Origin: Muribaculaceae bacterium
GTDB taxonomy: Bacteria; Bacteroidota; Bacteroidia; Bacteroidales; Muribaculaceae
DNA: 46,738 nucleotides
Assembly (NCBI GenBank): GCA_022510445.1
Contig: JAFLTN010000005.1
Location: 1 to 46,738 of the forward strand
Reading direction: 5' to 3'
Part shown: one piece after another, positions 4,855 through 24,373 of the stretch
How the letters are laid out: each line of letters begins with the position of its first letter
Numbering within the stretch: position 1 is the first letter of the stretch
Notes under the pieces: model-generated
Databases searched by the model: none
Seen by the model: the letters and a program-made list of their open reading frames with translations, nothing else
What the model was told of the DNA's origin: nothing
Program-made: the position numbers and the translations under genes

Positions 4855-7404
4855 TTATTCTATCAACGACTGATATTCCACAGAAGGCTTCTCATCACCC
4901 TCTTTATAGGTCACATTGATAATACCTCCTATCTGTCCTTCTGCATTAAGTTTCAGCATAAGTTCAGCAAGTTCATCTTCAAGATATTTTTGGATCGATC
5001 TTTTCAACGGACGTGCCCCGAAGTTCTTGTCATAACCTTTTTCAGCCATGAAACTCTTAGCCTGGTCAGATATTTTAAGTTCAAATCCAAGTTTCTCTAT
5101 TCTTGAATAGTAATCTTTGAGTTCAATATCGATTATCTTGAGAATAGCATCTTTTTCGAGCTGGTCAAACATTATGATATCATCGACACGATTGAGGAAC
5201 TCGGGAGAAAAGGCACGGTTAAGAGCTTTAGAAATTACTCCATGAGCCTGTTGTTTAGAAATAGTCTCTGTATTGAACCCTACTCCGCCGCCAAATTCCT
5301 TAAGTTGTCGGGAACCGACATTACTTGTCATAATGAGGATGGTGTTCTTAAAATCTATTTTTCTACCAAGAGAGTCTGTGAGTCTACCTTCATCCATCAC
5401 TTGAAGAAGAATATTGAAAACATCGGGATGAGCTTTCTCTATTTCATCAAGAAGCACCACCGAATAAGGATGACGTCTGACTTTTTCAGTCAGTTGTCCT
5501 CCTTCTTCATAACCCACGTAACCGGGAGGCGCTCCGACCAGTCTTGAAACGGTAAATTTCTCCATGAACTCGCTCATATCCATTCGGATAAGAGCATCTT
5601 TGGAATCAAAAAGATATTCTGCGATTTTCTTTGCGAGGTGAGTTTTACCAACTCCCGTCGGACCTAAAAACATAAACACACCTATAGGCTTATCGGGATT
5701 TTTTAAGCCGATCCGATTCCTCTGGATAGCTTTAACCACCTTTTTAATCGCATCATCCTGCCCGATAACCGAACCTTCAAGAACATCTCCCATCTTAAGG
5801 AGTCTTGTGCCTTCCGCCTGAGCTATTCTTTGAGTCGGAACTCCTGTCATCATAGCCACAACTTCAGCAACTTTATCCTCATCAACCTCCTGACGCTCTT
5901 CATCTATTTTCTTTTCCCATTCTGCCTGAGCTTTTTCAAGCTCAGCCTTTTTATTGTTCTCTTTGTCTCTTAAAGAAGCCGCCATTTCAAAATTCTGAGA
6001 TTTTGCAGCTGCAAGTTTCTCTTCGGTTATCTGAGCCACTTCTTTTTCAAGATTCTCGATTTCTTCCGGCACCACTATATTTGAAATATGCACACGTGAT
6101 CCTGCCTCATCAAGCGCGTCCAAGGCTTTATCGGGGAAATTTCTGTCGCTAATGTATCTTTGGGTAAGATCGACACATGCCACTAAAGCCTCATCTGTAT
6201 AATTTACATTATGATGTGCCTCATATTTATCTTTTACTTTCCTCAAGATCTCAAGAGTTTCCTCAGGCGATGTCGGTTCTACCATCACTTTCTGGAAACG
6301 TCTTTCCAACGCACCGTCTTTTTCTATATTCTGACGATATTCATCGAGTGTGGTGGCACCAACACATTGAATCTCACCTCTTGCAAGAGCAGGTTTAAGC
6401 ATATTTGCGGCATCCATCGTACCGGGAGCCCCACCTGCACCCACTATTGTATGTATCTCGTCGATAAAAAGAATAATGTCAGGATTCTTTTGAAGTTCTT
6501 CAAGAACCGCCTTTATCCTTTCTTCAAACTGTCCGCGATATTTAGTGCCGGCAACCATACCGGCCATATCAAGACCTACAACTCTTTTGTTGAAGAGGAC
6601 TCTAGGCACCTGATGATTCACAATTCTGAGAGCAAGCCCTTCAACTATTGCAGACTTACCGACTCCCGGTTCTCCAATAAGCACCGGATTATTTTTCTTT
6701 CTTCTCGAAAGAATCTGAGCTAACCTTTCAATTTCGTTTTCTCTTCCGACAACCGGATCCAGCCGCCCTTCGGATGCGGCTTTAGTCATGTCATAACCAA
6801 ACTTGTCTAAGGCCGGAGTATCAGTTTTCTCTCCTTTACTCTTTCCCTTTCCGGGTTGTTCGCTTCGGGAAGTTCCTCTACTTTGTCCAAAAGGAGTCAT
6901 CTCCTCTTCCTCATCATCCTCATCTCCGAAATTTTTTCCGGCCTGTGGAATGTTGAAATCATTGATATGCTGAATCGAAATGTCGAAATTCAAATATCTG
7001 TCTTTAATTTTCTTTAAAATTTCACTGTCCATGGCTCTCTGATCATGTATTAGAGCTAAAAGAATATGTTCGCCGGCCACAGTATGGGCATTCATTTTTC
7101 TTGCCTCGGAAACCGCAAGATGCAAATGACGGATTGCTGATAATGATATCTTGAATTGCTGTTCAAAAAGAGTTGTCCCTTCTTGATTGGGATTTGCAGA
7201 CATAAGATAGGTTTCCAGCTCTTTTTCGATCTCAGGAATAGGGACATTGAGCTGATTCAGAATCCTAAAGGCATAACCGTCTTGATTGCGAAGAGCAGCC
7301 AGCACGAAGTGTTCGCTTAGAATAACGGCAGAATTCAATTTTCTGGCCTCATTATAAGCTACCTCCAATATGGGTCTGAATTGTTTCGAATAATCGTTTT
7401 TCAT
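4855..7404 (-). CDS. clpC: ClpC-type AAA+ unfoldase of the Clp protease
   Basis: ATP-dependent Hsp100 unfoldase that feeds substrates to ClpP, 849 residues. The order is a Clp_N double repeat (about 1-145), a charged linker and AAA-1 with Walker A GEPGVGKS (244-251) and DEIHT. A middle region with a UVR-like coiled coil comes next, then AAA-2 with Walker A GPTGVGKT (581-588) and DEIEKAHPD, and the C-terminal D2-small domain. The VGF tripeptide at 708-710 (in FGGGVGF) sits where ClpP-binding loops of ClpA/ClpC lie. This favours ClpC, a protease partner, over ClpB, a disaggregase. The UVR segment and the lack of a long ClpB-type middle domain agree. No clpP or mcsA/mcsB lies adjacent. The promoter upstream is not clear. 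Confidence 0.94.
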
Positions 7405-19801: not shown

Positions 19802-19831
19802 TTTGGGTTAATCAATCACTCGTTATATTTG
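19802..19831 (+). promoter_or_regulatory. Candidate promoter of the AlbA_2 gene
   Basis: TTTG at 19802-19805, an 18-base spacer and TATATTTG at 19824-19831 fit the Bacteroidetes consensus. The start site near 19838 would leave a leader of about 200 bases before the ATG at 20039. Confidence 0.5.
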
Positions 19832-20038: not shown

Positions 20039-23000
20039 ATGATTTCAACAGACCTGAAACAAGGCGGTTCATATGCCTTTGAAGTTTTAAAAGAACAGTC
20101 GGCCGGCAAGTATTATAAAGTTAAGACAGATGATAATTTAGAATTCTCTATTCATAAGTTTCGTTTTCAATATCATCAACCTTTACCTGATTATATACAG
20201 TGTTATGTAAAATCACTTTATCCGCTGGCTTTAGGACAAGATATATCGGTTCATATAGCTAATTTTTATACAGAAGGAGAAGAATACAGTTTTATAGTTA
20301 AAGACATTATCGGGGATTCCTCATCTCAATATGAACTGGAGGATGAACACGGCTTACGGTTTAAATTATCTAATTCACCGGTACCGTTAGCAAAAGGTAC
20401 ACGTATAAGATGCCGGGTCATTAAAATCAAAGATGCTTATGTGAATCTAAAATACGTAGTATCGTTAGGCACAAAATTTATTCTTGAATTTCATACTATA
20501 GAACAATGGATGAAGCTTCTTGGATTTAAAAAATATCATGCCAATTATTATAATAAGCTGCTAACAATAGTGCCTGAACTACAACCGGCTTTACTTAAAT
20601 ATCAGAACAGAGTGCCGGGGTGGACACTTGATCTGCTTCAAATATGTTCAAAGAACATTACTGAATGGATGACTGCTTCGCGTGATGACCTTCATTCTTT
20701 AAGAAACATTTGTGACCGATTGGAATTAGGACGAAAACTCGCTTTATATATGCTTGAAGAGTCTGATTTTCTGAGGTCTTGCAGTCTGGAACATAGATAT
20801 TTACTTCAAGGTCGGCTTTCAAACTATGTTGAACATTTCGAACAGTATAAACTTGCAGCCTCAATGATTATTGAAAGGAGGCATGAGAATTTTATCGATG
20901 AAATGTTCAGCCGGTTAAAAAATGCCGGTTATCTATATAAACCTTCACGTCAGATCAGGATCATGATGACTATTCTCCGATTGCGTCCGGAACTGATAAA
21001 CAGCAGAATGGGAGAACTTTTTGAGGCTCTGCATAACTGGGATATTTCAAACTGGCAGTCTGAACCCTTCAGATCAGCTCTTGTGCACCAACTTCAAATC
21101 TTTATTGAAGAGAATTACGGCAAGGTTAATCTTTTGCCGGCAAGTGATTCAAGCAATGACAACAAGGTTATCAGCAGAATGATTATTGCCATTGCCATAC
21201 AGAGGCTCCTGACTAATGAAAGCGACAATCTCGATTTCAATCTCAACAGGGCCATGCTTTACAGATATATTTCCTTCCTGAATCCATCTGATGTAAACAA
21301 CCTTCTTGAAAAGGCCATTGTTGCTCTTCTTGGTCTTGAAATTGCAAATGAGTATATCTGGACCGATACGGAACATCCAACTTTACTTTTTATAAAATGT
21401 TCTCATCCTTTACCTCAAGATGAAGAAAGAGACACTATTGTCAAATCTTATATCACCTCTAAGGTTGAACTTCAGTTAAGTTCTGACAAGATTCATATCA
21501 TAGGTGCAGGTGCTGATCCGGAAACGACAGTTGTACCTAACAATATGTTCGATTGGATGAATCCTACCATTTCTCTCGCTGATGAAGTCGGTTTCTCCAA
21601 TACTAAAAAAAGCAAGGATCTCAATACCCTCAAAGAAAGCTGGGACAATATCGCCTGGTCTTTGTTCGGAGGGGATGAATCAGCCGGGCTTCATATAGAA
21701 AAGCATTTTCCCGATGAAGGAGATGAAGTCAATGTGATAATAGATGATGTTAAAATCTTTGATTCAGTCCATGAAAAGAAACGCCTCCAGTTTCATTGTA
21801 CGATTCATGATGAGTCTTATTACGGGGAAGGCTGGATGCCATGTGATTCTTACCATATGATCAGCTGGCTTACCTACAAAGACATCCCCGGTAATTATGA
21901 CGGGAAATTAGACTTCGCATGTGATGAAAAGGGAGACCATCTTGAATTCCTTGCCAATGTCCATGTGAAAAATGACGGCACTCTCGAATTCAGCATGAAG
22001 ACCCAGATAGAGGATTATCTGTTAGAAAACAGCTATCCCGGCATGGAGTCAATAGCAGTTGTCACATATTTCGACCGAATTAACAATGCCTGGCTTTGTC
22101 TAAGTGAAACAGGAGCCACCTATAAAGTAGCATGCGATGAATCTACTGATGAATTAACCGAAGGGACTCTTGTAAGGGTTAGATATATTGAACCGGACCG
22201 ATCACTTTCAACTCCACAATTTTTTATTGGTGAGCTATCTCCGGATCAGAATGACATACCTCCGATCATAAAAAAATCGGAATGTCTGAACAATCTGATG
22301 CAAAATCTGGGAAACCCTGTTATTAATGAACAACCTTATCAGGTGATGGAATCAGGACAGGTTCTTTCAAAACAGGAATTGGTAGAGCTAATCTATATTC
22401 TGCAACGCAGAGCCTTCTCTGAGCCTGAGTATATTAAAGCTTACAACTATTTAGGATTCGCCACTTTATTGTGTAGACTTGCCGAGGAAAAAATAATGCT
22501 GAATAAAATTGAGGCCCATATGCGTCTCCTGGAATTCCTTCAGGATTTCAGCAGAAACCGAAGACTGGATTATAATCTTGTAGATGAATTCGAAGAAAGA
22601 GTGCAACACTCTCCAATGCTGGAACGCCTTTACACAAGAATAAAGATTGTTTCAGACATTGAATCTAACCAGAACACTCCATGGCTTTGGGAAATCAGAC
22701 AAAATCCGAGGAACGAGACCGAAGGTAAATTGGCCTCACTGGTATTGTCTTATAATATGCTTCCTAAAGAATTGGAAGAATCAAGAAAGCAGATTCTCAA
22801 CGAAATTTCATCTCTTCTAAACATAAATAACGCCATATCGACTACAAAATATTATGGAGATGAATCTCAAACTGTAGAATTTAAGAGCAGTATGGTCTAT
22901 ACGGCCAATTCCGGCACTCGTCCTGATCCAAAGGCCCAAATGACTGAATTAACTGAAATAATCTGCAGTTTTATGAATGCAAAAGGAGGGAAACTATATA

Positions 23001-24118
23001 TAGGAGTTAACGATTCAGGTTATGAAAACGGTCTTGATGATGATCTTACATATAGAAAAAACCGGGGCAAGAAAGCTACTATTGATTCAATGATTGTCGA
23101 TTTACAGAACTATCTTGACAGGACTCTCCCCTATCATGCTAAAGACCATTGGGAGATTTCTTCAGACCCGGAATCTAAGAAAGGTGTCATCATTGTAGAC
23201 GTCAAACCGGTCAGAATTCCGGTAGAATTAGATGGCATTATCTATGTGCGTTCAAGTTCCACAACAAAACCTCGTTTAGGTGAGGAGCGAGAAGAATTCA
23301 TTAAAAGCAGAGAACATAATTATAAGATACTTATGGCCTTATGGGGGATTACCGAGAATGGTAATCAATCCGAGAATGAGGAAGATATCAATAATGAAAA
23401 GAATTTATCAGGCGAATCCGGAAATGAGAATGAAAAGTCAAAGGAAATTATTGAGGATAATTCTGAAGTTGAAAACGATCTCACCGAGATAAATTGTATT
23501 TCAACAGGCAGCCATCGGCGTAATGTCCTCCACGATTATGAAGATAATTTTGTCACTCCGTTTCTTTATATATATTTCAATAAGGAGAATTCTTTTCATA
23601 CCTCATCAGAAGATCTATATATAGATCACCGGCACAATCCTGAAGATTGCAGACTGGCACTCTCTATCCTCGAAAACGAAAGGAATGACAATCTTATCAT
23701 CACCTACGAAGATTCAAGCGTAGCCATAATTCCCATGAAGGATATATCAAATTTATCTCAGAATCAGAATTTCAGATTAAATGAAAAGAAAATAAAATGT
23801 GTCAACGTGGGATCGGACTCCGATTATATACTAAGTGTGTTGAAGATCCCTTCCGGTTCATTATTTTATAGACTTGATAAAATTGGCAATTTCGTTCATG
23901 CAAAAAACCTTACAGACACATCAGCTGCACTTTGCACTCTGCCTCACAGTTTAATAATTCAAGAAATAATCCATCCGGAAAGGCTAAGCTTTTATGAGAA
24001 AGATGCTAAAGACAGAGAACCTTCATTTTATGGTATTCCTGTGCCAATTGGAGATGGGACACTTACTAAAAAGGAAAGGATCAATGAATTACTCCGTCCC
24101 TTGATTTCGGAAGAATAA
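20039..24118 (+). CDS. Giant orphan protein with C-terminal AlbA_2 (Schlafen-AlbA) domain
   Basis: A 1359-residue soluble protein without signal peptide or membrane helices, whose overall function I do not recognise. Residues 1-140 look like two tandem small beta-barrels (S1/cold-shock/OB-like, e.g. FEVLKEQSAGKYYKVKTDD). Residues about 145-480 are helical. Residues about 555-745 again look like two beta-rich, OB-like modules, and 760-940 are helical. An AlbA_2 domain (about 940-1080) follows with its two hallmarks, VEFKSS (E947) and NAKGGKLYIGVND (980-992). An acidic Asn/Glu-rich linker (about 1103-1155) and a further globular end complete it. AlbA_2 domains bind nucleic acid and in Schlafen relatives cut tRNA/RNA. 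A role in RNA or DNA metabolism is therefore inferred, not shown. No ATPase motif is visible. It has a long structured leader and lies just upstream of two tRNA-Gln genes. Confidence 0.8.
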   Translation: MISTDLKQGGSYAFEVLKEQSAGKYYKVKTDDNLEFSIHKFRFQYHQPLPDYIQCYVKSLYPLALGQDISVHIANFYTEGEEYSFIVKDIIGDSSSQYELEDEHGLRFKLSNSPVPLAKGTRIRCRVIKIKDAYVNLKYVVSLGTKFILEFHTIEQWMKLLGFKKYHANYYNKLLTIVPELQPALLKYQNRVPGWTLDLLQICSKNITEWMTASRDDLHSLRNICDRLELGRKLALYMLEESDFLRSCSLEHRYLLQGRLSNYVEHFEQYKLAASMIIERRHENFIDEMFSRLKNAGYLYKPSRQIRIMMTILRLRPELINSRMGELFEALHNWDISNWQSEPFRSALVHQLQIFIEENYGKVNLLPASDSSNDNKVISRMIIAIAIQRLLTNESDNLDFNLNRAMLYRYISFLNPSDVNNLLEKAIVALLGLEIANEYIWTDTEHPTLLFIKCSHPLPQDEERDTIVKSYITSKVELQLSSDKIHIIGAGADPETTVVPNNMFDWMNPTISLADEVGFSNTKKSKDLNTLKESWDNIAWSLFGGDESAGLHIEKHFPDEGDEVNVIIDDVKIFDSVHEKKRLQFHCTIHDESYYGEGWMPCDSYHMISWLTYKDIPGNYDGKLDFACDEKGDHLEFLANVHVKNDGTLEFSMKTQIEDYLLENSYPGMESIAVVTYFDRINNAWLCLSETGATYKVACDESTDELTEGTLVRVRYIEPDRSLSTPQFFIGELSPDQNDIPPIIKKSECLNNLMQNLGNPVINEQPYQVMESGQVLSKQELVELIYILQRRAFSEPEYIKAYNYLGFATLLCRLAEEKIMLNKIEAHMRLLEFLQDFSRNRRLDYNLVDEFEERVQHSPMLERLYTRIKIVSDIESNQNTPWLWEIRQNPRNETEGKLASLVLSYNMLPKELEESRKQILNEISSLLNINNAISTTKYYGDESQTVEFKSSMVYTANSGTRPDPKAQMTELTEIICSFMNAKGGKLYIGVNDSGYENGLDDDLTYRKNRGKKATIDSMIVDLQNYLDRTLPYHAKDHWEISSDPESKKGVIIVDVKPVRIPVELDGIIYVRSSSTTKPRLGEEREEFIKSREHNYKILMALWGITENGNQSENEEDINNEKNLSGESGNENEKSKEIIEDNSEVENDLTEINCISTGSHRRNVLHDYEDNFVTPFLYIYFNKENSFHTSSEDLYIDHRHNPEDCRLALSILENERNDNLIITYEDSSVAIIPMKDISNLSQNQNFRLNEKKIKCVNVGSDSDYILSVLKIPSGSLFYRLDKIGNFVHAKNLTDTSAALCTLPHSLIIQEIIHPERLSFYEKDAKDREPSFYGIPVPIGDGTLTKKERINELLRPLISEE

Positions 24119-24210: not shown

Positions 24211-24281
24211 TGCCTTGTGGTGTAATGGTAGCACACCGGATTCTGGTTCCGTTTGTGAGAGTTCGAGTCTTTCCAAGGCAA
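24211..24281 (+). tRNA. tRNA-Gln (anticodon CUG), copy 1
   Basis: A 71-base cloverleaf. The acceptor TGCCTTG pairs with CAAGGCA and the discriminator is A. The D arm is GTG/CAC with the GG pair in the loop. The anticodon loop TTCTGGT gives anticodon CTG (reads CAG), and the T arm is GAGAG/CTTTC with loop TTCGAGT. The 3' CCA is not encoded. The outermost anticodon-stem pair (C27 with T43) is mismatched in both copies. Identity as Gln follows from the anticodon. Confidence 0.93.
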
Positions 24282-24296
24282 CATAAAAGGGATTAT

Positions 24297-24367
24297 TGCC
24301 TTGTGGTGTAATGGTAGCACACCGGATTCTGGTTCCGTTTGTGAGAGTTCGAGTCTTTCCAAGGCAA
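24297..24367 (+). tRNA. tRNA-Gln (anticodon CUG), copy 2
   Basis: Identical in all 71 bases to the first copy and only 15 bases after it. Identity extends slightly beyond the gene (one base upstream and ACAT downstream), as expected of a tandem duplication of about 75 bases. The pair is followed by a terminator, so both are probably cut from one short precursor. Confidence 0.93.
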
Positions 24368-24373
24368 CATTTT

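Follow-up and report, generated by a model that had tools for sequence, protein, structure and literature searches.

Little is understood of what triggers the antiviral tRNases SAMD9 and SAMD9L of animals and the Schlafen proteins (SLFN5, 11, 12, 13, and 14). Cleavage depends on three acids of an AlbA_2 domain: E184, E196, and D241 in human SAMD9, where K198 and K214 are among the tRNA contacts (PMC11221667, PMC12331169), and E205, E210, and D248 in rat SLFN13 (PMC5862951). SLFN11 is described as coupling DNA damage to tRNA cleavage (PMC11221667), and bacterial members of the SAMD9 family have been described (PMC5445408). Prokaryotic Schlafen-type RNases have been reported in defence (PMC12839542, citing a 2025 preprint). 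The subject here is a gene at positions 20039..24118 (forward strand) of a 46,738-nucleotide stretch from a Muribaculaceae bacterium (assembly GCA_022510445.1, contig JAFLTN010000005.1; the window). Its 1359-residue product combines S1-like OB barrels, an AlbA_2 domain, and a beta-pinwheel by predicted fold, and we give an even chance to the reading that it is a self-contained, normally silent tRNA endonuclease gated by its C-terminal nucleic-acid-binding module.

The open reading frame (ATG start, 1359 codons) is a genuine gene, exactly at the position that a preliminary description of the sequence had given. Full-length relatives of 1353-1374 residues share 51-70% identity with the window protein, and the ratio of nonsynonymous to synonymous substitutions (dN/dS) is 0.030-0.077 in the six of the 14 closest pairs that have a finite dS, with the acidic linker looser; from these relatives and the low dN/dS it follows that the gene is maintained, under purifying selection. 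Family-wide comparisons use 76 distinct proteins, a set that leaves out L108, duplicates, frames truncated at a contig end, and any match weaker than 1e-60; rows containing X (L044, L052, L134, L152) were excluded from structure alignments.

SLFN_AlbA_2 (PF04326) is the sole Pfam match over its cut-off in the window protein, at residues 942-1078 (E 3.1e-11; score 44.3 bits, cut-off 25.3), in line with the AlbA_2 domain announced near the C-terminus by the preliminary description. PHROGs matches are confined to the surroundings of AlbA_2 (940-1100), and an NCBIfam scan of the protein returned no match. The domain as a whole, residues 931-1105 (22829..23353), is predicted to adopt the fold of solved tRNase domains such as that of SAMD9. 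Paired beta-barrels appear at about 1-145 and 561-740 in the AlphaFold model of residues 1-760 (pLDDT 84.2), close to the OB/S1 pairs picked out by eye beforehand (1-140 and 555-745). Their top Foldseek matches are a chlororibosome chain, 3go5 (a multidomain nucleic-acid-binding protein), and a 70S/bS1 chain (E 8.8e-5 to 1.4e-4); these models, together with VIA, point to S1-like OB barrels of the kind found in S1/OB-fold RNA-binding proteins. The first pair occupies residues 1-145 (20039..20473); the second, at 561-740 (21719..22258), is also marked by conservation: G692 is glycine in each of the 75/76 proteins with a residue at that position, L142 being without most of this segment.

Residues 146-460 (20474..21418), which have no confident fold match, and 741-930 (22259..22828), with N906 in 76/76 proteins, are modelled as helices without strands. 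AlbA_2 is followed by an acidic linker, residues 1106-1158 (23354..23512), which is predicted to be disordered (pLDDT below 50 for model residues 563-605) and is the least conserved part of the chain (identity 0.30 within the window's clade). The remaining residues, 1159-1359 (23513..24115), are predicted to form a beta-pinwheel of the GyrA/ParC C-terminal type. This fold overturns the earlier statement that about 200 residues after AlbA_2 match nothing; the preliminary description had missed the pinwheel, and the relatives with a WYL domain in its place could not be seen from the window alone. Sequence similarity of the pinwheel to GyrA/ParC lies at the edge of detection (best E 0.13); a GyrA box pattern occurs in none of 37 tails of the window protein's architecture, but it misses the window's own gyrA, the control, as well.

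All three acids of SAMD9/Schlafen-type endoribonucleases (E, E, D) are present in the window protein. E942 (22862..22864) is invariant in 76/76 proteins, as are E947 and K949 (22877..22885); D992 (23012..23014) is aspartate in 65 and asparagine in 11. E942 corresponds to SAMD9 E184, provided that the starts of the VIA ranges align gaplessly, and to E205 of rat SLFN13, whereas E947, K949, and D992 are equated by spacing with SAMD9 E196, K198, and D241. The distance between the glutamates is 5 in the window protein and SLFN13 and 12 in SAMD9; the second glutamate and the aspartate lie 45 apart in both the window protein and SAMD9 and 38 apart in SLFN13, and across the family this distance is 45 in 36/76 and 44-51 in the remainder. 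Invariant positions in the domain are E942, E947, K949, S951, Q967, N980, G983, G984, G989, G994, G998, D1016, and R1071. Over the full length of the protein, the predicted catalytic acids rank among the best-kept positions; the remaining SAMD9 contacts are not conserved across the family (residue 965 is lysine in 17/76). Because the OB/S1 and AlbA_2 guesses are borne out and the Schlafen catalytic acids are present, a tRNA-cleaving role is well motivated. That much of the Schlafen-like role suggested in the preliminary description holds up; for its defence part the evidence, given below, points both ways.

The AlbA_2 tRNase fold of SAMD9/SAMD9L is among the window protein's best structural matches. 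Shared with SAMD9/SAMD9L are the E-E-D acids, the lysine two past the second glutamate, the glutamate-to-aspartate spacing of 45, and a large helical region with OB barrels within one chain. Unlike SAMD9/SAMD9L, the window protein has no recognised SIR2-like domain (Pfam gives no match, though SAMD9's variant SIR2 may escape Pfam), its OB barrels, four in number and S1-like, precede AlbA_2 rather than follow it, the spacing of the glutamates is 5 rather than 12, and the chain ends in a beta-pinwheel, replaced by a WYL domain in some relatives. Nor was an NTPase found: the window protein has no Pfam NTPase match and no Walker A pattern, as the preliminary description had also read it, the pattern occurs in 2/76 family proteins, at unrelated places, and the long regions 146-460 and 741-930 show no strands in the models. 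SAMD9's own P-loop is described as unusual (PMC5445408). With no sign of the P-loop NTPase that belongs to the SAMD9 family proper, the window protein lies outside that family in the full sense but, by analogy, would work alike.

Schlafen proteins, which share AlbA_2 and the three acids, give the best sequence-profile matches, but the fold match is weaker than that to SAMD9, the Schlafen linker and helicase are missing, and, where the N-domain of Schlafens proper has two AlbA_2-like halves, one AlbA_2 region is seen (one in Pfam, one in the VIA rows; a diverged second lobe could escape). DIP2311 of Corynebacterium diphtheriae (3lmm), a 492-residue chain, matches the window protein over AlbA_2 only. 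The prokaryotic Schlafens described in PMC12839542 are likewise single bacterial chains with an AlbA_2-type RNase as effector, joined there to a minimal histidine-kinase ATPase and a winged helix-turn-helix; neither of these was found in the present family, which instead has S1 barrels with a pinwheel or WYL domain and lies outside BREX loci. GyrA/ParC shares the beta-pinwheel of residues 1159-1359, but the window chain lacks the topoisomerase part. No report of S1 barrels combined with AlbA_2 and a gyrase pinwheel or WYL domain was met among the papers listed by searches of open-licence PubMed Central, bioRxiv being outside those searches.

The core of the family is constant while the C-terminal module is exchanged between subfamilies. 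Type A (n=37) has the architecture of the window protein; type B (n=8, about 1100 residues) stops after AlbA_2, and seven of its eight members have asparagine at position 992. Both other types lack the N-terminal barrels: type C (n=18, about 940-1020 residues) carries a different C-terminal domain, and type D (n=13, about 800-860 residues) has none. When the core is placed on a maximum-likelihood tree, a 100/100 branch separates A and B (45 rows) from C and D (31 rows), and the four type labels require four changes, against about 35 in shuffles. A profile of 17 type C tails finds first PafC (E 7.2e-5) and then the BrxR entry 7qfz (0.0011) in the PDB, which identifies the type C domain, at the level of sequence profiles, as WYL. 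Singly the matches to WYL are weak: whole type C proteins reach E 0.12 or better in 6/6 cases, with 2/6 above the cut-off (best 5.9e-9), and the tails alone reach E 0.1 or better in 5/17; none of four type B and D proteins matches, and WCX is seen in 2/51 tails scanned (best E 0.02). Fusion to a tRNase-type core sets type C apart from the WYL regulators PafC and BrxR, and the window protein itself has no WYL domain. WYL domains are described as binding single-stranded DNA or RNA in some proteins and as occurring in regulators of DNA damage and phage defence (PMC9122601).

These parts suggest how such a protein may work. AlbA_2, with the metal-binding acids of SAMD9/Schlafen tRNases, would be the cutter; the two S1-like OB barrel pairs would hold RNA, either tRNA itself or mRNA and the ribosome, in whose vicinity tRNAs occur; and the C-terminal module, a gyrase-type pinwheel here and WYL in type C relatives, would be the gate. 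In the uninduced state the helical and OB arms would inhibit the core. Binding of its nucleic acid by the C-terminal module would release this inhibition, and the released core would cut tRNAs and stop translation; candidate triggers are phage, DNA damage, and other stress. What the data show is the gene, its predicted folds and catalytic residues, the module exchange, and a single-copy, nearly exclusive distribution; cutting, its tRNA substrate, triggering through the C-terminus, and translation arrest are what we infer. A more specific version is tentative and on balance doubtful: a domain borrowed from gyrase or topoisomerase IV, or in sister lineages a WYL domain like those of DNA-damage regulators, would recognise DNA that is damaged, unusual, or foreign and activate the SAMD9-type tRNA cutter of its own chain. 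If true, it would couple the state of DNA to translation, as reported for human SLFN11. The family shares the catalytic residues of SAMD9 and Schlafens, no ATPase was found in it, and its C-terminal nucleic-acid-binding module is visibly interchangeable; it therefore offers a simple system for asking what switches such tRNases on.

The same modules could serve a DNA-binding regulator in which AlbA_2 binds without cutting: the gyrase-type pinwheel and WYL are DNA-linked domains, and a structure of the SAMD9 AlbA_2 domain is, by the title of entry 7ksp, one with DNA. Pfam finds no helix-turn-helix match in the window protein, however, and the retention of the catalytic acids argues against this reading, which we consider highly improbable.

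The family is not an orphan, as the preliminary description had it. With core profile A1 at a threshold of E 1e-20, 83/111 genomes of the genus match, with one match each except for G013, which has two; among good genomes (completeness at least 90%, contamination at most 5%) the count is 36/46. The gyrA gene is over its cut-off in 45/46 good genomes and present at E 1e-50 in 46/46, G484 having only a weaker, ParC-like match. Around the window's genome, and counting it, 51/101 genomes match. Beyond the genus the family thins: in an even sample of 393 genomes of the order, seven match across much of the core (G000, G083, G199, G295, G409, G428, G271) and 20 more solely around AlbA_2, and in a phylum sample of 395 a core match occurs only in the window's own genome, with two more matching at AlbA_2 only. 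Named records gave 16 loci. Fifteen are relatives (among them L108, truncated by its contig), under the titles Muribaculaceae (9), Bacteroides sp. (2), and uncultured Porphyromonadaceae (4); the other, from Lachnospiraceae, matches at AlbA_2 only. Relatives occur in Segatella copri HDE06, S. hominis HDD12, and Muribaculaceae bacterium Isolate-037, an isolate going by its record title.

Such breadth in single copy, the low dN/dS, neighbours that are mostly metabolic by Pfam, and the S1-like barrels would also suit an RNA enzyme with a constitutive housekeeping role, or a factor of RNA surveillance, acting for example in tRNA or mRNA turnover near the ribosome, with the pinwheel or WYL domain only a tether. 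Yet 10/46 good genomes have no match where gyrA is found in 45/46, which makes the gene probably dispensable, though some absences are perhaps assembly gaps. The subfamilies have also diverged far: the median ratio of family to gyrA tree distances is 11.7, part of which reflects the deep subfamily split. Dispensability, divergence, and the exchange of the C-terminal module make a housekeeping role unlikely. Agreement between the family tree and gyrA in 61 genomes is only partial (Mantel r 0.38, P 0.001; Spearman 0.17).

The two subfamilies nearly exclude each other. Genomes were classed from frame length and completeness (over 1040 residues = A/B; G003 by hand; G049 partial): an A/B copy is present in 43 and a C/D copy in 41, with one genome holding both, against 15.9 of 111 expected under independence. 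Among the 46 good genomes the counts are 19, 17, and 0, against 7.0 expected (hypergeometric P 5e-6, a value that ignores relatedness). Thinning by gyrA, on 42/46 good genomes (G481, G488, G051, and G484 left out), gives a median P of 0.0024 with 27 clusters, 0.0016 with 26, and 0.07 with 12. In the loci read, A/B and C/D genes lie at different places, so replacement at one site hardly explains the pattern; perhaps a single copy is enough, or two are harmful. If the protein is a DNA-triggered tRNase, module exchange and near-exclusion would amount to one such switch per cell.

Patchy presence and rare co-occurrence of subfamilies would equally fit a dedicated anti-phage abortive-infection protein, a one-gene version of the prokaryotic Schlafen defence systems (PMC12839542), as would the SAMD9/Schlafen-like effector with its exchangeable module. 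Two Segatella plasmids carry relatives (coverage 93-94%, identity 24-25%), annotated as "ATP-binding protein"; a third plasmid record matches at AlbA_2 only. On the S. hominis plasmid (L240, 2358-6536) there are two DUF262 genes, which we take to be GmrSD-like, some 5-10 kb away from the family gene. Phage records hold no relative, nor do viral contigs, which were searched by two peptide patterns only. PADLOC has no match to the window protein (0 families up to E 1), and among 123 neighbours scanned, with no background control, each PADLOC family at 1e-20 matches one or two, though a few of the single matches are strong. Defence is further opposed by the metabolic neighbours, the fact that most species of the genus carry the gene once, the purifying selection, and a site beside uvrA shared by most of the window's clade. 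A defence role is possible, if still rather doubtful.

Also counted for defence is the adjacency of tRNA genes. Of the 74 loci with enough sequence, 12 have one no more than 200 bases past the stop codon, against 6/635 other genes. By reading, four placements are independent and unrelated: tRNA-Gln in eight loci of the window's clade, tRNA-Ser in L055/L058 and, separately, in L059, and tRNA-Arg in L141. If the distance from the 3' end is extended to about 360 bases, tRNA genes (Gln, Ser, Arg) are seen in several unrelated loci; those with 3' tRNA genes are the window (24211-24368), L033, L034, L036, L037, L039, L040, L104, L110, L112, L114, and L115, and L055, L058, L059, and L141. In the window these are two tRNA-Gln(CUG) genes (24211..24368, forward strand), outside the protein, the first 93 bases past the stop codon. 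The adjacency may reflect insertion hot spots and forms no part of the proposed tRNase mechanism.

On its 5' side the window gene is flanked by a divergent NlpC/P60 gene, and on its 3' side by the two tRNA-Gln genes and uvrA. A promoter-like TTTG-N18-TATATTTG (19802..19831, forward strand) lies about 210 bases 5' of the start codon and is a candidate by the Bacteroidota consensus. No neighbour cluster is common to more than 16/76 loci; the gene thus has no constant neighbour, in keeping with the absence of a partner gene in the preliminary description. In part of the window's clade (L033, L034, L040, L104, and L114) the family gene sits between two members of the uvrA cluster, and in part of type C the gene lies between acetyl-CoA hydrolase-like and GNAT-like genes (by eye). 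Elsewhere in the window's genome there is a second AlbA_2 protein of about 520 residues (G000:C8:4975-5319, L031), and in another genome a further giant AlbA_2 protein (L143 2-3889, G389; 1296 residues, cut by its own stretch) matches the family only around AlbA_2. At 4855-7404 (reverse strand) of the window, an 849-residue protein gives candidate PADLOC matches to PDC-M37B (5.2e-41) and DolB (4.4e-31) and, at a guess, is perhaps an ordinary AAA-type ATPase.
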